Positions 22,383-64,000 of a stretch of 64,000 bases of DNA are shown here, piece after piece. The stretch's first letter is position 1. Every line of letters starts with the position of its first letter. Position numbers and translations under genes: made by a program. Source of the DNA: Stereum hirsutum FP-91666 SS1. Lineage: Eukaryota > Basidiomycota > Agaricomycetes > Russulales > Stereaceae. The notes under the pieces were generated by a model. The model did not search any database and was not told the DNA's origin. It worked only from the letters and a program-made list of their open reading frames with translations. Where the stretch lies: NCBI RefSeq assembly GCF_000264905.1, contig NW_006763154.1, forward strand, positions 329,482-393,481. Reading direction: 5' to 3'.

Positions 22383-23013
22383 GACGCTTAGCATACCATG
22401 TGCGTATCTGCTTTGACCCTTACCCCTTCGTCTCCCGTCTCACCTATTCTGACCGCCGTTGCTTCCTCATCCTTAGTTGCCACCATTCACTGACTTGAGT
22501 TCGACCTCGTCGATCACATTGCCAGGCCCCTGCATCTCGCATTTGCTGTCGCGGTAGGAGGATACCGCCGCAGCCAGGACAGTCTTCGTCAGTGCTCAGC
22601 GGTTTCTTTGCGGCCGGTCTTGTTCCCTGCAACGTCCTGGGCCACGATACCGTATCATAGCCCGTTCACGCCACTTCAAGCTAATGGCCCCGAGCGTGTC
22701 AGGCCTGCCTGGCTTACCAATACGCATGTCGAGGTCTATGCCCCGATCCAGTCCATTGCCAGCAATCAGCTGGCTTCGGAAGCTAGCTCTTCCGAGTCGA
22801 TTCTCGTGTGGCGTTTCTACATACTCGACCGTCTTCGTGGATCTGACAGTCGTAGACGTGTTCTCTGCTCCTACGACGTCGCAATGTCGGTCCACCTCTC
22901 GCGTACTGCGACCACGTCCTATCAGCTCGATCACACTTCTCTTTTTGCTTTCGCAGCGTGACCGACGCTCGCTATCCCTCATTTATCCCTCTTCTCCTCG
23001 TATCGGTTACAAG
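22383..23013. other. No gene supported
   Basis: Downstream of the basic repeat protein. Open frames exist on both strands but show no coherent splicing. The word CCGATCCAGTCCATTGCCAG near 22743 faintly resembles the following tandem repeats. Confidence 0.4.
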
Positions 23014-23870
23014 ACCATGTCCTGGCGCAGTCCATCTATAGCGATCGGCTGTGTCCAGCGCGTGACCTATTCACGCCTGTGGTCTACGTAGCCGTACTAG
23101 TTCCTCTTTCACCCACTTTTTTTCTCGTGCTTTGCTCTTTTGTTCTCGTTCGGCTGCTCTTTTTTTTATTCTTTCGGTAGCGATCACACGACCATGTCCT
23201 GGCGCAGTCCATCTACAACGATCGGCTGTGTCCAGCGCGTTACCCATCCACGCCTGTGGTCTACGTGTCCCTATTGTTTCCTCTTTCACCCACCTTTTTT
23301 CTCGTGATTTGCTCTTTCCCTCGTTTTGCGGCTCTTTTTATCTCTCTCTCGGTAGTGATCCCATACACACGGCCATGCCCTGGCACAGTCCATCTACAGC
23401 GATCGGCTGGTGTCCAGTGTGTTGTATTTTCAGCACCTGTGGTCAATGTACATGTATTACTCGCCTCACCGCCTTCTCATATCTTTGTTTCATCTTCGCG
23501 GTCTGTTTCTTCTCGTCCTTTTTTATAATTATTTGCATTCGCCTTCTTTTCGGAGTACTTTGGTGCACCTTACTTATTACCATGTCCTGGCGCAGTCCAT
23601 CTACCGCGATCGGCTGACGTCCAGCGTGTTGTCTTTTCATCACCTGTGGTCAATGTAAGTAGACTACTACTCACCTTCTCCCCCTTTTTTGTTTCGTTAT
23701 CTCTCGTTCGTGTTCTCCTTTTTTCGTGGTTCGTTTTTGTTATCGTTCCGCATTTAATGTTTTCCTGTAATGATGTCGGATCCCTGTATTATCACGTCCT
23801 GGCACAGTCCATCTACAACGATTGGCTGATGTCCAGCGTGCTATCCTTTCAGCGCATGTAATTCAAGTAC
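23014..23870 (+). repeat. Five tandem exon-like repeats, period about 175-215 bp
   Basis: Cores of about 75 bp are at 23014-23090, 23190-23265, 23372-23450, 23578-23657 and 23791-23870. Each contains (C/T)CTGGC(G/A)CAGTCCATCTA followed by an (A/C)GCGATCGGCTG-like block and a CACCTGTGGTC-like end. Spacers are T-rich and intron-like (TTTTTTCTCGTGCTTTGCTC). Translated cores 3-5 keep LAQSIYxDRLxSSVLxF(x)HLW. This looks like amplification of one exon plus intron, or a satellite derived from a gene. No full ORF links the units. Confidence 0.7.
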
Positions 23871-46794: not shown

Positions 46795-47148
46795 TGATGA
46801 TTATGTTGATGATTCACTACGTTGAGTATGAGGCCGGATATAGTGTATAAATAGAATGACTGATCTGCCTCACAAATGAACGACACTCGTACTGGTCCTG
46901 ATCAGGAGAGCTAGATTGTAGGTACCTCCACAGGAGGCGAGGCCTGAGCTTGATAGGAATGAATACCCGTACTGCTACATAGCGGTCCAAAAATACACTG
47001 TAGTAACTAATGGCTGTTATATGCATATGGTTACAACTTGAGACGTGCGTTCGTGCCACTGTGGCCCAATACACATGGAGTTGCTCGGCATCTGCCGTCG
47101 GACATGGTGTCCAAATTCCTCTCGCTTGTTTCTCGCCTTCGCTCTTTA

Positions 47149-48276
47149 CAGCGCTTTCAGAAAGTATGCGGAATCGCGCGTTTCGCGATTTCGCCTCAGC
47201 CACAGGCCAGCCGGCGGCGCGTGTCCCGGCTGGGGCATCTCCCGGGTCCGGCAGTGGCGAGCGAGCGGCCTCGTCATGTGGCCCACACCCCATGCTGGCT
47301 AACTGGGCTGCTATTCAGATTTTTTACTACATGTATCAAGCATAACATGACTCTCAAATATGTTCTTGGTGTTATGGGATACAGAGGAGGTGACTCTTTG
47401 GGGAAATGACCAGTGACAATATATAATGGATGGTGTCAGGCAAGTTTGTGTTCTTTCGAAGTCTTACTGGCGACTCGAGAGCCCCTGAACTCGCCAAAAG
47501 ATATCCCGCATAAAGAATAAATGTACGCGACTGCGTTTACTCACTGGAGTCACTTCATTGTCTCAACTGTGTGCTCATGGATGCATATTTGCNNNNNNNN
47601 NNNNNNNNNNNNNNNNNNNNNNNNNNNNNNNNNNNNNNNNNNNNNNNNNNNNNNNNNNNNNNNNNNNNNNNNNNNNNNNNNNNNNNNNNNNNNNNNNNNN
47701 NNNNNNNNNNNNNNNNNNNNNNNNNNNNNNNNNNNNNNNNNNNNNNNNNNNNNNNNNNNNNNNNNNNNAGGCCAGCCGGCGGCGCGTGTCCCGGCTGGGG
47801 CATCTCCCGGGTCCGGCAGTGGCGAGCGAGCGGCCTCGTCATGTGGCCCACACCCCATGCTGGCTAACTGGGCTGCTATTCAGATTTTTTACTACATGTA
47901 TCAAGCATAACATGACTCTCAAATATGTTCTTGGTGTTATGGGATACAGAGGAGGTGACTCTTTGGGGAAATGACCAGTGACAATATATAATGGATGGTG
48001 TCAGGCAAGTTTGTGTTCTTTCGAAGTCTTACTGGCGACTCGAGAGCCCCTGAACTCGCCAAAAGATATCCCGCATAAAGAATAAATGTACGCGACTGCG
48101 TTTACTCACTGGAGTCACTTCATTGTCTCAACTGTGTGCTCATGGATGCATATTTGCAGTTGGGCCACAGTCGCGATGGCCCGGAGAGAGCCGTGCCGAA
48201 GCTCGCTCCGTCGGCTGGCCTGTGGCTGGAGCGAATTCGCGAAGTTTACGATTCCGCATAATTTCTGAAAGCGCTG
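47149..48276 (+). mobile_element. Non-autonomous TIR transposon (MITE-like), interrupted by an assembly gap
   Basis: The left end at 47149 is CAGCGCTTTCAGAAAGTATG and the right end at 48276 is its inverse (CAGCGCTTTCAGAAATTATG on the minus strand). The imperfect terminal inverted repeats extend about 65 bp. TA flanks both ends (47147-47148 and 48277-48278), as expected for a TA target-site duplication of Tc1/mariner-type elements. 47204-47592 and 47769-48157 are the same 389 bases on either side of the N gap. Removing one gives a 563-bp element, matching the copy at 63450. It has no transposase ORF. Confidence 0.8.
47593..47768. other. Assembly gap, 176 N, probably spurious
   Basis: Both sides of the gap carry the same 389-base sequence, so two contigs probably overlap here and were not merged. 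Confidence 0.85.
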
Positions 48277-57123: not shown

Positions 57124-58131
57124 TAGCTCGACTCGGACTCGAACAAGACGGACAAGTCGATTATGGCCCAGAACACAGAGCAAAACATCCAACAGGTTCC
57201 GGAGTGACAAAAGAACCAGAAACCAAGGAAAAAGCTATTGATGAACTGTCACAATCAATAGCTCAACTATGAGTCGAATCGAGACCTTCCTACTGACCAA
57301 CAGGATCGAATGAATAAATGGAGAGACGCGCTACCATTACGCTACCCAGCCATGAATATAGCAGGAATACGGGGCCAAGATGGAAAAACCCAGAACCAAG
57401 CAGCCCGTAGGTGGTCCCCGAGTTTGAGACACTGTGTCCGTCAAAAGAAAGACAAAGGGAAGGGAAAGGGAAAGATAACGATAGGCTAGCAAAATATACC
57501 ATAGAACTTCGTCGTAGGCTCATAGCCAGACTCGGAGTCGAACCGAGATCTTCCTGTCAACAATTGCTTTACCTGCGGTAAGATATGTGGGCAGAGACGC
57601 GCTACCGTTGCGCTATCGAGCTGTATTTCTATATATGTCAAGATGGATAGGTTGGTCAATGCCACGACCTGGCTTGTAGAACAAAGCGACGTGCGGCCAA
57701 TTCCGAGTATAAATCACGTTACTCATCCCAGAGAACAAGAAAAGAAAGACAAAGGGAAATGGAAATGGAACAAAAAGTGCGAAACGCACATTGTCACAAG
57801 CAGTAGCTCGATTCGGAGTAGAAACGAGAACTTTCATTCTCAATCAATATAAGACAACTGGGATACGGGACTTCATTGATAGAGACGCGCTACCATGAGC
57901 TAAGCATCGAGCTATAGTTCTGTATCTCCAAACACGGATAAGGTGGTCATGCCCAGTCCAGGAAGTGGAAGAAGGAAGCTCACAGGAAGAGCCAGAGTCG
58001 TGATAGCGTATAGTGAGATGAAAGAAAGAAAAACACCACGAAATCGACGATAGCTCAACTCGGAGTCGAACCGAGAACTGTCTGTCGACCAGTAGGATCA
58101 AAGAAACAAATGGAGAGACGCGCTACCATTA
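57124..58131 (-). repeat. Left part of the tRNA-like array: five degenerate or truncated copies
   Basis: Copies lie at 57124-57143 (3' end only), 57259-57351, 57523-57622, 57804-57912 and 58051-58131 (5' part lost). All run on the minus strand. Only 57523-57622 keeps both a canonical A box (AGCGCAACGGTAGCGC) and B box (GGTTCGACTCC). Spacers share GAACAAAGCA and AAGACAAAGGGAA words with the right part of the array. Confidence 0.65.
57523..57622 (-). tRNA. tRNA-like gene, left-array copy with intact A and B boxes
   Basis: The D arm and T arm are canonical. The anticodon position reads CCA with C at position 33. The acceptor 3' strand is damaged (TCTGGCT instead of TCGAGCT). An insert of about 27 nt follows the anticodon. 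Confidence 0.45.
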
Positions 58132-58149
58132 TTACTTGGGGTCGACCGG

Positions 58150-59568
58150 CTAACGCCGCCCGAGCGGAGCCACAGCACGCAAGTCGTAGAGTACTCCCCA
58201 TCCGGGCTGCCCTCCCAATCCGCCATTGTACCAGGAGGCTTGGTGTTTCGCCAGCTGAAATTAAGATCAACCACAATCAGTCAGTGACCATATCTTCAAT
58301 ATCTGTAGAGGAAGATTCAGGAAAGGGAGAAGCATGGTAAAGAGACTCACCCTTTCCCGTTCCCATTGATAATTCTCTTTCTCGTCTCGAAGCTTCTCCC
58401 TCTTTTTCGCCTTCATTTTCTCTGTAAGACTCTTCTTTTTCATTTTTTCCTCGAGGGTTTTCAGTTCGGCTTGAAGGGCACGAATGTCCTTTGGGTTCCA
58501 GTAGGGAGTGAACTCCCACATGCTAGTGGCTGTAAGCGGATCGCGGACTGTTGAAAATATGTACGTCAGCAAATTGATCACGGGTCTGATGCGAAGACGC
58601 ATCAAAGGGGAAAGAAAACCTACAGCCAGTGTGAACGATCGAATAAAGCCAGTCTTCCTCAATACCCATTTGCAATGCTTCCTCTTCTTGAACAAGCCTG
58701 CAATTGTGGCAATCAACGCACAAGCCAGACGATTCCATGCGGTCAAATCGAGTTCAGCGTCAATTTTTAAGAAGAGTGTGTAATCAGAGAAATCTGAATG
58801 ATGACGGTGGTGGTGGTGGTGGTGAAGATTGCTTACCCATCCGTGATACATTTACTCGGGTATACACACGTTTGACGCCTCACAGTGAAGTCGACGTGCA
58901 TCGCGCCCTTCGCACCACAGACCTAGATATACGCATTCGTAAACCATTCATAAGAAGGAACCACAGCAATGTAAGCCACTCACCCAGCACGTATTCCCCA
59001 GGAGGAGATTCACCCATGCCGGTTCGGGATAGTCTTCGGGGCATTCGTACAAAGGCACCGGGTGGTTGTTCCAGATATCCAGCCAGATGGATTGCGAGCT
59101 CCGAGACCACAGTAATAGATGAAGTGCTTTGTTCGTCTTTGAGAGAGACAGAAGGTCCCGGGGACTGAGGTGTGATACAATCTGTCGAAACACGGAGGTG
59201 ACAGAACTTAATGAGAGCTATGTTAAACCATCTAAACAAGAAACGAACCTGTCGAAAAAGTTCCATAGGGATAGTCGACAAGGAATTTGGGTGGGATGCT
59301 TCGCTTGCTGTGTCGCTGCCGCTATTCGCAATTGGCTTGGACTTGCTTTCACGCTTGACTTTCTTTGAAGACCGTGTATCCTCTGGTTCTAAGAGTAACG
59401 GAAAAGGCACCACTTTCAGTCCAGACGGGACATCACTCAGTCGCGACACAGTGACTCACCTTCTGACGGTTCTCGGATTCGTACAAGGCGTTTGTTTGGT
59501 TTCCGCTCCCACTTCGGGTCGGTAACTGCTATCTTCTTCGTTTTGCGATGTCTGAGACAAGAGAGCAT
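58150..59568 (-). CDS. F-box protein with Cys-containing central part
   Basis: Exons are 59568-59460, 59388-59249, 59181-58984, 58922-58837, 58697-58624, 58547-58351 and 58254-58150; all phases agree, giving 302 residues. The N-terminal 60 residues are basic and Ser-rich (HRKTKKIAVTDPKW, SSKKVKRESKSK). The F-box is at about residues 76-120 (IPMELFRQIVSHLSPRDLLS, then LLLWSRSSQSIWLDIW). A short VCGAKGAMHVDFTVRRQTC segment, a Glu-rich helix (LVQEEEALQM) and WEFTPYWNPKDIRAL follow, then a Lys/Glu coiled coil (about 230-265). The C terminus ends APLGRR only 18 bases from the truncated tRNA-like copy at 58131. A mushroom-type F-box adaptor of an SCF ligase is the likely role. The gene sits between the two halves of the tRNA-like array. 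Confidence 0.78.
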
Positions 59569-60321
59569 GGCGGTAGTAAGTGATGTCGATGAAGTTGTGG
59601 AGGAAGGAATGAGAAGATGGTGGTGAACGATGAGAGAAGGCGACCTGAGGCCGGCCCCTCATATATGATGCGGAACAAAGGAGACACGCGGCAAGAACTT
59701 CTTGCCGACCACGTGGGACTGTGTCAGGGCCCTTGAACGTTGTTGGACCGAGTCACAATTCCTCGGTTCAATCATTTAGCCAGCTTTGTTCCCTACGCGG
59801 CAGGCGAAAAATAATTTCACATACTGTGTCTCAATAGCATCCAATCTACTTGGACAAGGTCGTTCTTAGCAACAATCCAAAGTGGTCGCGGGTCAAAGCA
59901 CGAGAAGCGATGATGATGCGACAGTCCAGGTGATGGAATGACCCCTCAAGACGAGCAGTGACTCTAGGGCACACCAAGAACCTGATCATCGGATTAGCGC
60001 AATCTGATGGAGCAATCCGGAGAGTGCGGCAGGATCAAGACAAAGGAGTCGACGAAATGGGCCGATGATGAAACTGCGGCGTAAAGTACCCCAGAGATAT
60101 ATTCCCAGTGGCAGAACGAAGTCTGCTATCAAGGGGCACAATCGAGCCGCGTTCACTCTAAGCTTCCAGAGCAGGAATAGAAGCAGCGAGGAATGACTGC
60201 CTCCGCGTCGAAGCTACACAGGAAGGGATGATTTCAGAACAAAGGAACAAAGGAACAAAGCACCTCAAGCGCCGGAAGGACGTGGTAATCGGGAAAAATG
60301 ATTGCTTCATTAGACGGCCAG
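59569..60321. other. Intergenic
   Basis: Promoter side of the F-box gene and approach to the right half of the array. No gene is seen. Confidence 0.55.
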
Positions 60322-60419
60322 CAGCTCGACTCGGAGTCGAACCGAGATCTTCCATCAACCATTAGGTCTACATCAATCTAAGATCGGGAACAGATGCGCT
60401 ACCGTTGCGCTATCGAGCT
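60322..60419 (-). tRNA. tRNA-like copy 1 (right array)
   Basis: A and B boxes are intact and the acceptor is paired. Anticodon stem TCTGT faces GATGG (poor). Positions 34-36 read CCG. Confidence 0.55.
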
Positions 60420-60539
60420 ATAGTTATAGCAAGGCGACCTCCTCGATAGTCATTTTTACCCGTACTTACGATATTATATCCTGGGAGGAAGAACAAAGCA
60501 ACCGGCAGGATAAAAAAAAGTAAACCGCAGGCTTGCTAG

Positions 60540-60635
60540 TAGCTCGACTCGGAGTCGAACCGAGAACTTTCTGTCAACTGTATTGTTCGCTCTAGAAGAT
60601 CAGAGACAGATGTGCTACCGTTGCGCTACCGAGCC
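60540..60635 (-). tRNA. tRNA-like copy 2 (right array), intact anticodon stem
   Basis: Anticodon stem TCTGT/ACAGA is perfect, T33 is present, and positions 34-36 read CTG. The acceptor has wobble pairs. A run of 8 T lies 21 nt downstream of the 3' end (60519-60512) and could terminate Pol III. Confidence 0.6.
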
Positions 60636-60844
60636 ATGTCCATAGCAAGGCGACCTCTACGATGAACCACTTCCATTCCTAGGTTCCTCTGTTTTCAATT
60701 GATGAAGACTTAGAATCCGGAAGAAAGCAGCACACAGGCGATTTCCGAGTCAGAGCCACTCTGTCCATCCAAGGCAAGAGAAACGAAAGACAAAGGAAAG
60801 ACCGAGAACCATCAACACAAAAAGCGACGGCTTAGCTTCGAACG

Positions 60845-60942
60845 TAGCTCGACTCAGAGTCGAACCGAGATCTTCCATCAACCATTAGGTCCACTCCGAT
60901 CCACAATAGAGAACAGACGCGCTACCGTTGCGCTATCGAGCT
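60845..60942 (-). tRNA. tRNA-like copy 3 (right array)
   Basis: Boxes are intact apart from one change in the T stem. Anticodon stem TCTGT/GATGG is poor. Positions 34-36 read TCT. Confidence 0.55.
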
Positions 60943-61101
60943 ATATCTCTGTGCCTCCTACGGCGGATAGGTTGATCATGGCCAAGGAATTTGCACCTAA
61001 AGCAAGGCGAGCCGTGACAGCCTAGACGCGAAGCAAGACAAAGGAAAGCCCGAGAAAAGATAACCGTCAAGATCGAAAATTACGAAAACACTATCCCTAC
61101 G

Positions 61102-61205
61102 TAGCTCGACTCGGAGACGAACCGAGATCTTTCTCTCCACCCATATAAGACAACTAGGACGCGATGCAAAGTGGGAGAGACGCACTACCGCTGAGCTATC
61201 GAGCT
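61102..61205 (-). tRNA. tRNA-like copy 4 (right array), intact anticodon stem
   Basis: D arm is GCTCAGCGGTAGTGC, anticodon stem TCTCT/AGAGA is perfect, and the loop begins CCCAC. The T loop is TTCGTCT. Confidence 0.55.
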
Positions 61206-61378
61206 ATGATTATAGCTGGATTATGGGGCCTAGATAAAAGAACGCAGAACAAAGCAGCGTACAGGAGAGCCCCAAGTCAGAGCCACTCTGTCCGTCCAAC
61301 GCGAGAGAAAGGGAGGAGAAAGGTGAAGGCCAGCATAGGCTTGAAAAATTATACGGTCTGTGGAACAGGCACGTTACA

Positions 61379-61476
61379 TAGCTCGACTCGGAGTCGAACC
61401 GAGATCTTCCATCAACCATTAGGTACACATCAGCCCAAAATCGGGAACAGACGCGCTACCGTTGCGCTACCGAGCT
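61379..61476 (-). tRNA. tRNA-like copy 5 (right array)
   Basis: A and B boxes are intact. Anticodon stem TCTGT/GATGG is poor. Positions 34-36 read CCG. A TTTTT run lies downstream on the minus strand. Confidence 0.55.
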
Positions 61477-61597
61477 ATAGTTATAGCAAGGCGACCTGCT
61501 CGATAGTCATTTTTACCCTTACTTCCGATATTATATCCTGGGAGGAAGAACAAAGCAACCGGCAGGATAAAAAAAAAGTAAACCGCAGGCTTGCTAG

Positions 61598-61700
61598 TAG
61601 CTCGACTCGGAGTCGAACCGAGATCTTCCCATCACCCATGACTGGAAACATATATAGGCAGCAAGTGGACGCAGACGCGCTACCGTTGCGCTACCGAGCT
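61598..61700 (-). tRNA. tRNA-like copy 6 (right array), CCA at the anticodon with U33
   Basis: After stem TCTGC the loop reads GTCCAC, giving U33 and CCA (Trp). The 3' stem strand GATGG pairs poorly. A run of 9 T lies 21 nt downstream (61577-61569). Confidence 0.6.
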
Positions 61701-61884
61701 ATGTCTATAGCCCGATGTCCTTTGCGATGGACTAGTCAAGATCTCAGAAACCCGAACGGAGAAGAAAGCAGCCCATAGGCAGTCCACGAGTTTGAATCAT
61801 GTCCCGTCAGTCCAGATCAAGAGTGGAAAAAAAGACAAATAAAAACAGGGAAACAAACGATAAATATGGTCCACAACCAATAGG

Positions 61885-61982
61885 TAGCTCGACTCGGAGT
61901 CGAACCGAGATCTTCCATCAACCATTAGGTACACATCAGCCCACAATCGGGAACAGACGCGCTACCGTTGCACTACCGAGCT
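61885..61982 (-). tRNA. tRNA-like copy 7 (right array)
   Basis: Nearly identical to copy 5, with one change in the D stem (GTGC). Positions 34-36 read CCG. Confidence 0.5.
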
Positions 61983-62124
61983 ATAGTTCCGTAGCTCCCA
62001 AGACGAATAAGTGAGTAACGGCCCAGGACGTAGAACAAAGCAACCTGCATCCAGACCCCGAGTCGGGACACCCCTAAGCACGATCAAAGGACGAAGAAGA
62101 AAAAACATAAGCTTTACGGACTAT

Positions 62125-62226
62125 TAGCTCAACTCGGAGTCGAACCGAGATCTTCATGTCAACCATTATTGGATTCATGGAAAAAGCCAAGTGGACAGTG
62201 ACGCGCTACCGTTGCGCTATCGAGCT
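62125..62226 (-). tRNA. tRNA-like copy 8 (right array), CCA at the anticodon with U33
   Basis: Stem TCACT is followed by GTCCAC, so U33 and CCA (Trp) are present. The 3' stem strand is mismatched. Confidence 0.55.
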
Positions 62227-62405
62227 ATAGCTCTATGTCTCCTGTGACGGATCAAAAGTTGGTCATAATCATGGACCTAGAACAAAGCAGCATGTAGGCG
62301 ATCCCCGACTCCGAGCCACTCTGTCCATCAGAAACAAGAGAAAAAGAAAGAGAGGAAGACAGAACGCGAAGTATGAAAAAACTAGGTTGCGCTAACGGAA
62401 TCCAG

Positions 62406-62509
62406 TAGCTCGACCCGGATTCGAACCGAGATCTTTCTGTCGACCATTAAGTCCGTGCCATTCATGATAAGAATTGGGGACAGACGCGCTACCGTTACGC
62501 TATCGAGCT
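62406..62509 (-). tRNA. tRNA-like copy 9 (right array), intact anticodon stem and CCA
   Basis: Stem TCTGT/ACAGA is perfect and the loop starts CCCCAA, giving CCA at 34-36 but C at 33. The B box is GGTTCGAATCC. Confidence 0.6.
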
Positions 62510-62692
62510 ATGTCTATAGCAAGGCGATTTCTATCATGGACCCCTTCTGATCACATTTCTCATAGATCTCGGGACATACGTAGTACAAAGCATCCCGCAA
62601 GACGTCCCCTAGCCTGAGCCACTATGTCCGTCAAAAGCAAAAGAAAGGGAAGACAAAGAAAGACAAAGAAAATATGACACATCATCTATAGG

Positions 62693-62790
62693 TAGCTCGA
62701 CCCGGAGTCGAACCGAGATCTTCTGTCGACCATTAGGTCAATTCCGATCCATAATAGAGAACAGACGCGCTACCGTTGCGCTATCGAGCT
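62693..62790 (-). tRNA. tRNA-like copy 10 (right array), intact anticodon stem
   Basis: Stem TCTGT/ACAGA with a 4-nt variable loop. Positions 34-36 read TCT. TTTT lies downstream. Confidence 0.55.
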
Positions 62791-62936
62791 ATGTCTGTAG
62801 GTAGACTATGGGTCCTAGAGAAGAGAACCCAGAACAAAGCAACCTGCACCGAGCCACTCGTCCCTCCAAAGCAAGAGAAACGAACGACAAAGAAAAATAG
62901 AATGAAAAGTGTAAAGGAACACCTGTTCAAACTACA

Positions 62937-63040
62937 TAGCTCGACTCGGAGTCGAACCGAGATCTTCCTGTCAACCATGATTCTACGTCAGAAAGAATGA
63001 AAGATAGGGAACGGATGCGCTACCGTTGCGCTATCGAGCT
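62937..63040 (-). tRNA. tRNA-like copy 11 (right array)
   Basis: A and B boxes are intact. Stem TCCGT/ACAGG has one mismatch. Positions 34-36 read CCT. Confidence 0.55.
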
Positions 63041-63449
63041 GTAACTTATAGTCAGAAGCCCTCTATAACTGACGAGTTAAGCTCTTGAGAATCAGCAAGA
63101 TGGGATCCCCGAGTCTGAATATGTTGGCTAGGAAGCCAACCGCCCTAAGCCCAGAATCATAGCCATAACCATAGTGGCATCCTTGAGAGAAACAGAGCAC
63201 GGCCTGCCCAAGACTCGAGAGAGATCTGGATAGATGCAGAGACGGGCATGGAGGTTGAGGACAAGTTGAAAAACTTTCGTGCACCTCCTCGGGATCGGCC
63301 CGCTAGCCGGCATTCCGAGCGGAGCCGCTTATTTTTGTTGTAAGTTTTTGACCACCACGGCCATCATGCTCTCTCTCATCGAACTCCTCTATTTGTACCT
63401 CTAGGATATCTTGCACTCGCATAAGTCCACCAGTACGTGCTCATACTTA
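63041..63449. other. Spacer between the array and the second transposon copy
   Basis: No gene is seen. The minus strand at about 63330-63294 holds GCGGCTCCGCTCGG followed by a GCCGGCTAGC-like block, similar to the last codons and stop of the F-box gene at 58150-58185. Confidence 0.5.
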
Positions 63450-64000
63450 CAGCGCTTTCAGAAAGTATGCGGAATCGCGCGTTTCGCGATTTCGCCTCAG
63501 CCACAGGCCAGCCGGCGGCGCGTGTCCCGGCTGGGGCATCTCCCGGGTCCGGCAGTGGCGAGCGAGGGGCCTCGTCATGTGGCCCACACCCATGCTGGCT
63601 AACTGGGCTGCTATTCAGATTTTTTACTACATGTATCAAGCATAACATGACTCTCAAATATGTTCTTGGTGTTATGGGATACAGAGGAGGTGACTCTTTG
63701 GGGAAATGACCAGTGGCAATATATAATGGATGGTGTCAGGCAAGTTTGTGTTCTTTCGAAGTCTTACTGGCGACTCGGGAGCCCCTGAACTCGCCAAAAG
63801 ATATCCTGCATAAAGAATAAATGTACGCGACTGCGTTTACTCACTGGAGTCACTTCATTGTCTCAACTGTGTGCTCATGGATGCATATTTGCAGTTGGGC
63901 CACAGTCGCGATGGCCCGGAGAGAGCCGTGCCGAAGCTCGCTCCGTCGGCTGGTCTGTGGCTGGAGCGAATTCGCGAAGTTTACGATTCCGCATAATTTC
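63450..64000 (+). mobile_element. Second copy of the TIR transposon, cut by the window edge
   Basis: Starts CAGCGCTTTCAGAAAGTATG after TA at 63448-63449 and follows the 47-48 kb copy with about half a dozen differences over 551 bases. By comparison, 11 more bases would complete the right end. No ORF encodes a transposase. Confidence 0.85.

Follow-up and report, generated by a model that had tools for sequence, protein, structure and literature searches.

A single-locus tandem family of tRNA-like genes with predicted introns and changing anticodons in Stereum hirsutum

The window analysed here, a 64,000-nt stretch of contig C24 (NW_006763154.1; C24:329482-393481) of the basidiomycete Stereum hirsutum FP-91666 SS1, carries near its right end a tandem array of tRNA-like genes. 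The genome as searched comprises 46 Mb in 38 contigs. A profile search placed 16 minus-strand copies at window positions 57124-63040, of which 15 are clear (E 1.2e-13 or better) and one is a 21-nt remnant, in agreement with a first-pass annotation of this DNA that had counted about sixteen copies on one strand. The array is interrupted once, between 58130 and 60322. Its features, by window position, are as follows.

57124..57144, minus strand: copy remnant, 3' end (T arm/acceptor) only, 21 nt, marginal at E 0.0087
57259..57350, minus strand: tRNA-like copy, triplet ATT, T arm diverged (profile search)
57523..57622, minus strand: tRNA-like copy, triplet CCA (Rfam tRNA model, 39.4 bits)
57804..57913, minus strand: tRNA-like copy with indels, omitted from per-position counts (profile search)
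58051..58130, minus strand: tRNA-like copy without its 5' end, bordering the interruption (profile search)
58131..60321, minus strand: interruption of the array, about 2.2 kb, with protein-gene reading frames, F-box-like by eye only
60322..60419, minus strand: tRNA-like copy, triplet CCG (46.5 bits)
60540..60635, minus strand: tRNA-like copy, triplet CTG paired with CAG (45.4 bits)
60845..60942, minus strand: tRNA-like copy, triplet TCT (43.1 bits)
61102..61205, minus strand: tRNA-like copy, triplet CAC, anticodon stem TCTCT/AGAGA (41.7 bits)
61379..61476, minus strand: tRNA-like copy, triplet CCG (44.3 bits)
61598..61700, minus strand: tRNA-like copy, triplet CCA paired with TGG (43.0 bits)
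61885..61982, minus strand: tRNA-like copy, triplet CCG (39.6 bits)
62125..62226, minus strand: tRNA-like copy, triplet CCA, anticodon stem poor (profile search)
62406..62509, minus strand: tRNA-like copy, triplet CCA paired with TGG (52.1 bits)
62693..62790, minus strand: tRNA-like copy, triplet TCT; its single-sequence fold is a cloverleaf with an extended anticodon arm (53.0 bits)
62791..62936, minus strand: example linker, with the trailer and T run of the 62937 copy, a conserved middle element and the leader of the 62693 copy
62937..63040, minus strand: tRNA-like copy, triplet CCT, the 5'-most in the window block as read (48.0 bits)

Eleven of the 16 copies scored 39.4-53.0 bits with the Rfam tRNA model, beyond its gathering cut-off of 29, and six of these were recovered by a whole-window scan as well. 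In a genome-wide tRNA covariance scan, the best 63 of 1406 candidates scored 48-67 bits. ARAGORN, run in bacterial mode, reported a single array copy in the window; its anticodon calls on the array scatter across isotypes and intron positions and were not used. Tandem Repeats Finder did not list the array in the window, probably because the copies are too diverged. Pfam searches of two pieces of the reading frames in the interruption returned no F-box, and in one piece a sub-threshold condensin-like match.

The family extends past the window. A profile search of C24:289001-553000 gave 58 matches: 57 minus-strand copies, all within the 76.6 kb of C24:386605-463161, and one plus-strand match at C24:501383, which is an ordinary tRNA-Arg(TCG) gene. 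The copies fall into six blocks, namely the window block (split) and those at 405.8-409.7, 422.3-425.1, 441.1 (a single copy), 452.3-453.1 and 460.1-463.2 kb. Because ~9.3 kb to the right of the window reads N, 57 copies is a lower bound. The earlier count of sixteen therefore stands for the array it described and falls short of the family. Outside this locus, DNA and body-pattern searches of the 46-Mb genome found no member: all matches of the DNA search (40/40, a lower bound) and all those of a body pattern with up to three mismatches (43/43; reversed-pattern control 0) lie in the locus, on the same strand. The linker at 62791-62936 gave matches on C24 only (6/6). Three patterns, two inserts and one trailer, drawn from 11 insert groups and 22 trailer groups defined by clustering, gave 18 of their 19 matches inside the array at up to three mismatches, the sole match elsewhere lying on C17 with three mismatches. 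An exact search with a 27-nt body pattern found no match in viral and bacterial/archaeal collections.

This confinement bears on the suggestion, made in the first-pass annotation, that the array is a precursor of a tRNA-derived retroposon (short interspersed element, SINE). A tRNA-like body with A and B boxes fits such an origin, but no dispersed copies were found, every match of both genome searches being at one locus and on one strand, and the tandem spacing is regular. A retroposon or its precursor was rejected on the lack of dispersed copies, and we regard it as extremely improbable.

The units are laid head to tail and measure 216-308 bp in 44 of the 45 units of the whole locus, close to the 220-305 bp proposed earlier; the remaining unit, of 461 bp, holds a partial copy. 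Conservation within the 45 units is markedly uneven. The consensus frequency is 0.89 in the 5' body and 0.91 in the 3' body, compared with 0.42-0.50 after shuffling, and the A-box and B-box regions are among the best-kept parts. The sequence inserted in the body reaches only 0.58 (0.44-0.51 shuffled), and the first 20 bases of the trailer, at 0.49 versus 0.43, are near random. For the idea of a satellite built on a tRNA gene the evidence is divided: the locus is a head-to-tail tandem repeat, but conservation of the tRNA body far exceeds that of the insert or the first trailer bases. The linkers also hold a conserved middle element, around GAGTGGCTCAGACTCGGGG and GCTGCTTTGTTCTG of the minus-strand consensus (62791-62936 is an example), which is possibly an upstream element for RNA polymerase III (Pol III).

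Signals for Pol III are frequent. Consensus A boxes occur in 45 of the 57 copies, consensus B boxes in 42, and a run of four T (T4) within 60 nt downstream in 55. The T4 run counts for little by itself, since one is present in 72% of composition shuffles; its placement is non-random. The first T4 falls 17-31 nt past the gene in 47/55 copies, whereas shuffles place 11.6 there (sd 3.0, maximum 24 in 2000), and it falls inside the first 16 nt in only 2/55, compared with 18.6 in shuffles. The first-pass report of A and B boxes with downstream T runs is thus borne out. All eight canonical tRNA genes with long flanks that we checked have their first T4 at 21-32 nt, and because of this the terminator position in the array looks ordinary, its T-run spacing resembling the usual terminator position of the genome's own tRNAs. 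The same likeness weakens a small-RNA reading of the trailers.

The body itself is tRNA-like. Per-position counts were made on 47 of the 53 near-full-length copies, six with large indels or truncations being left out. U8, A14, G18, G19, A21, U54, U55, C56, A58 and C61 are each kept in 44-47 of the 47, G53 in 43 and A73 in 45, and a variable arm of 4-5 nt fits best. The anticodon stem shows evidence of covariation: 212 of 235 cells pair, where exchanging arms among the copies gives 203.3 (sd 2.6), and 3 of 5000 such exchanges did as well. This test permits a variable loop of 4-6 nt, equally for data and shuffles. RNAalifold, run on 22 of the 57 copies, recovered the acceptor, D and T stems. The triplet at positions 34-36 varies widely on this one body: CCA in 18 copies, CTG, TCT and CAC in six each, CCG in four, TCG in two and five others once, eleven different triplets in all. 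Four window copies carry CCA, matching the three to four noticed before.

The two arms of the anticodon stem are separated by 28-44 nt. Eukaryotic pre-tRNA introns have, in their finer layout, a 3' site in a short bulge. In the array, 110 of 141 cells show pairing between positions 34-36 and an insert triplet whose end lies 3 nt ahead of position 39, more than at any other of the 63 offsets tried (the next being 102 and 101); with inserts swapped between copies the expectation is 98.8 (sd 3.4), reached or exceeded in 7/5000. The fully paired triplets are mostly CCA/TGG (11 copies), CTG/CAG (5) and CCG/TGG (4). Judged from the sequence, this is the geometry of the canonical eukaryotic pre-tRNA intron, which sits one nucleotide 3' of the anticodon and forms an anticodon-intron pair (PMC4090602), and splicing is predicted. 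The first-pass description of intron-bearing tRNA-like genes is strengthened by the invariant bases, the anticodon-intron pairing and the terminator placement.

Parentage proved less clear than that description had supposed. It had matched the D arm to tRNA-Trp, but the three tRNA-Trp(CCA) genes found in the genome (anticodon read by eye; ARAGORN labels them Gly or Arg) have short introns and a different D arm, GCTCAGTGGTAGAGC. They are 63-64% alike to the array body and are not its closest relatives, and CCA stands in only 18/47 copies; tRNA-Trp parentage was rejected. The nearest canonical tRNAs, Ile-AAT, Lys-CTT and Arg-ACG, reach 67%, which does not amount to a close isotype, in a comparison set of 41 ARAGORN predictions with duplicates collapsed that represents part of the genome's tRNA genes.

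Could the copies be normal tRNA genes active in translation, belonging to several isotypes and multiplied to serve decoding? Most invariant bases are kept, A73 included, CCA is the commonest triplet, and the GTCCAC-type CCA copies and the CTG copies do have U33. Of the 47 copies, however, 19 have U at position 33, 27 have C and one has A, so that the combination of U33 with a consistent anticodon expected of an elongator is not seen; eleven triplets share one body, the best isotype relative among the canonical tRNAs examined is only 67% alike, and ordinary tRNA genes, three for Trp among them, exist elsewhere in the genome. We consider a decoding expansion quite improbable.

The copies are mosaics. 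In 48 copies (1128 pairs; five near-full-length copies dropped), insert similarity is uncorrelated with similarity of the first trailer bases (r 0.01) and only slightly correlated with that of the leader (0.15-0.23), while between adjacent segments of the linker the correlation is 0.33-0.54 for those on the leader side and 0.25-0.43 for those on the trailer side. Since insert and trailer are uncorrelated while neighbouring linker segments are correlated, exchanges evidently fall within the conserved body, to judge from these similarities chiefly near its 3' end. In a second set of 48 copies, 44 of 1128 pairs share an insert at 85% or more; these average 0.91 over the insert and 0.92 over the body, compared with 0.65 over the leader (0.49 shuffled) and 0.55 over the trailer.

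A methyltransferase-like gene accompanies most of the blocks. Its plus-strand first exon occurs at four places genome-wide, all on C24 (411.8, 426.1, 454.0 and 464.1 kb), each beside an array block, 1.2-2.2 kb away and head to head with it. Only at 464.1 kb does the remainder of the gene follow; the copies at 426 and 454 kb consist of the first-exon region alone, at 412 kb the first exon is joined to a later part, and in two of these three truncated or rearranged copies the matched frame contains stops. For a later exon, the match to Pfam Methyltransf_2 falls below the cut-off (E 0.0016), and several of the named database relatives of this neighbouring gene are methyltransferases. The organism was named for 10 of its 31 relatives, and all ten belong to genera that form mushrooms, Hericium, Psilocybe and Mycena among them. 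No methyltransferase-like neighbour was found beside the window block, which runs into N, or beside the 441-kb block.

The recurrent neighbour raises the question of whether the array acts as a chromatin boundary, or as a set of binding sites for Pol III factors, next to the methyltransferase-like gene, with TFIIIC/TFIIIB binding selected and not the RNA. The head-to-head placement at all four first-exon sites and the good preservation of the A- and B-box regions would fit. On the other hand, with truncation or rearrangement in three of the four gene copies, co-duplication may be all that the association reflects; beside two of the six blocks no such neighbour was found, one of them being the window block that runs into N; and binding at the boxes needs neither intron pairing nor a terminator position. 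A boundary role of this kind appears very unlikely.

The duplicated gene pieces were also tried as a possible neutral yardstick for divergence at the locus. They are 68-79% alike over long alignments and 78-88% over the first-exon core, and the array bodies average 0.857 identity across blocks (846 pairs). The main rival to the reading we favour takes this at face value: the locus would be a non-functional satellite, an old tandem tRNA amplification whose body has been homogenised by unequal crossing-over and by gene conversion on identical stretches. Exchange within the body is evident from the correlations above, at least 6 of the 53 near-full-length copies carry large indels or truncations, and the cross-block body identity lies inside the 68-88% range of the duplicated gene pieces. 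Yet conversion explains neither the T run that stands 17-31 nt out, past near-random sequence, nor the scarcity of T4 in the first 16 nt, nor the covariation seen in the anticodon stem and the anticodon-intron pair. On constraint versus homogenisation, terminator placement, pairing geometry and the contrast between body and trailer weigh more than body identity. We think a dead satellite unlikely.

Our favoured reading, which we hold to be rather more probable than its competitors taken together, is that the locus harbours an old family of intron-bearing tRNA-like genes that would be kept for Pol III transcription, folding and probably splicing, with no one decoding role. The sequence itself shows the anatomy of the units, their confinement, the differential conservation, the pairing geometry and the mosaicism; Pol III transcription, splicing and selection behind the conservation are inferred. 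Each unit would be its own Pol III gene, with A and B boxes lying inside it, a cloverleaf body that an insert splits after the anticodon, and a trailer of mostly 17-31 nt ending in a T-run terminator. Pol III would read each unit to its own T run, and the transcript would fold as a tRNA with a canonical intron. After splicing, the products would probably be tRNA-like RNAs without a common decoding role, their anticodon loops usually lacking U33 and differing among copies. The anticodon would be free to change, its intron partner changing along with it. Unequal crossing-over would have multiplied the copies, exchange points in the body reshuffling trailers and inserts, and the blocks would have been duplicated segmentally, with the 5' end of the plus-strand methyltransferase-like gene copied along in four of the six.

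Several observations weigh against this reading. Body-focused recombination could by itself homogenise the body, and a body identity of 0.857 alone shows no constraint because the duplicated gene pieces span 68-88%. The remaining linker is conserved too, with a consensus frequency of 0.72 (0.47-0.48 shuffled), between body and trailer start. An A box, a B box and T4 are all present in only 35/57 copies. U33 is low, as noted above, and position 37 is a purine in only 27/47. With arms swapped, the acceptor stem (316 vs 316.6) and the D stem (180 vs 178.7) show no excess covariation, and the T stem shows a weak one (221 vs 217.0, 86/5000); fully paired triplets at 34-36 number 24/47 compared with 18.3 with inserts swapped (53/5000). 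All these shuffles ignore the relatedness of the copies, and the small counts are not probabilities. RNAalifold, on its 22 copies, missed the anticodon stem and found two-sided changes in 0 of 16 pairs, an outcome that we attribute to the MAFFT alignment, which disregards the variable loop of 4 or 5 nt. Finally, when seven copies were folded singly, the best fold was a cloverleaf in three, with z-scores of -0.2 to -2.3.

A more specific form of this reading is that transcription, fold and splicing are selected in a non-decoding RNA family on a tRNA scaffold, with the anticodon loop, intron and trailer free or diversifying. We put this forward as unlikely but worth stating. If it were true, the useful product would be the spliced introns, the trailers or the odd tRNA-like RNAs of a reshuffling locus.

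Other repeats lie near the array or elsewhere in the window. Between array blocks, inverted and direct duplications of 92-95% identity occur at C24:402785-405701 and 456997-460074, holding reading frames that look NTPase/WD40-like by eye. At the right edge of the window, 63447-64000 is an element with 86-nt inverted ends (63461-63546 and 63915-64000; 74% complementary), parts of which are 98.8-98.9% identical to the stretches 47146-47592 and 47769-48265. By these features it looks like a recently active transposon of the miniature inverted-repeat (MITE) type. A tandem repeat of period 177 (2.3 copies, 83% matches) lies at 23009-23417.

How does the array compare with known systems? Like intron-containing nuclear tRNA genes (PMC4090602), the array copies have an internal promoter, a cloverleaf, an insert after the anticodon and anticodon-intron pairing, with the terminator spacing of the genome's own tRNAs; unlike them, the array consists of 57 diverged copies at one locus with an unfixed anticodon, mostly C33 and no close isotype relative among those examined. 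Plant tandem tRNA arrays consist of genes less than 1 kb apart that arose by local duplication, both as identical arrays and as clusters of 2-110 non-identical members, and there the two genes of a tandem pair that share more than 74.4% identity are stated to serve the same amino acid consistently (PMC12652284). Local tandem duplication is common to both, yet the bodies described here average 86% identity and carry eleven triplets and introns. Entamoeba arrays (PMC2652664) share tandem tRNA genes, variable linkers and an undefined array role; in Entamoeba, nearly every tRNA gene sits in an array and the copies are for the most part alike, whereas here one non-canonical family occupies one locus.

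Among tRNA-like families, Serpula lacrymans has high-copy tRNA-Ser(UGA)/Thr-like elements, found with tRNAscan-SE 2.0 and judged repetitive elements (PMC8450103). That case too involves a multicellular fungus, many tRNA-like copies and disagreement between anticodon and body, but the copies there are identical, most with identical flanks, while ours are diverged, tandem, intron-bearing and confined to a single locus. Nematode nev-tRNAs (PMC4300185) are likewise a lineage-specific tRNA family, theirs marked by disagreement between anticodon and charging; they have a long variable arm, in contrast to the 4-5-nt arm and intron of the array. Eukaryotic anticodon shifts (PMC3923123) resemble the array in changing the anticodon on a kept tRNA body, but those shifts lie between syntenic orthologues, whereas here they lie among tandem copies, with the intron changing too. 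We found no description of such an array in the literature searched, and the combination of tandem confinement, intron geometry and drifting anticodons is absent, as far as these sources go, from the systems compared.

Tandem arrays of tRNA genes are familiar chiefly in the form of near-identical copies. The 57 or so copies at this locus have diverged from one another, yet they keep what Pol III and the splicing enzymes require and not what the ribosome requires. If they are transcribed, the family would offer a natural experiment on the tRNA features that selection retains once decoding is removed, and would be a sign that tRNA genes can be recruited to non-translational RNA or chromatin roles. 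If they are silent, the locus would show that recombination alone can hold a gene-like body together.

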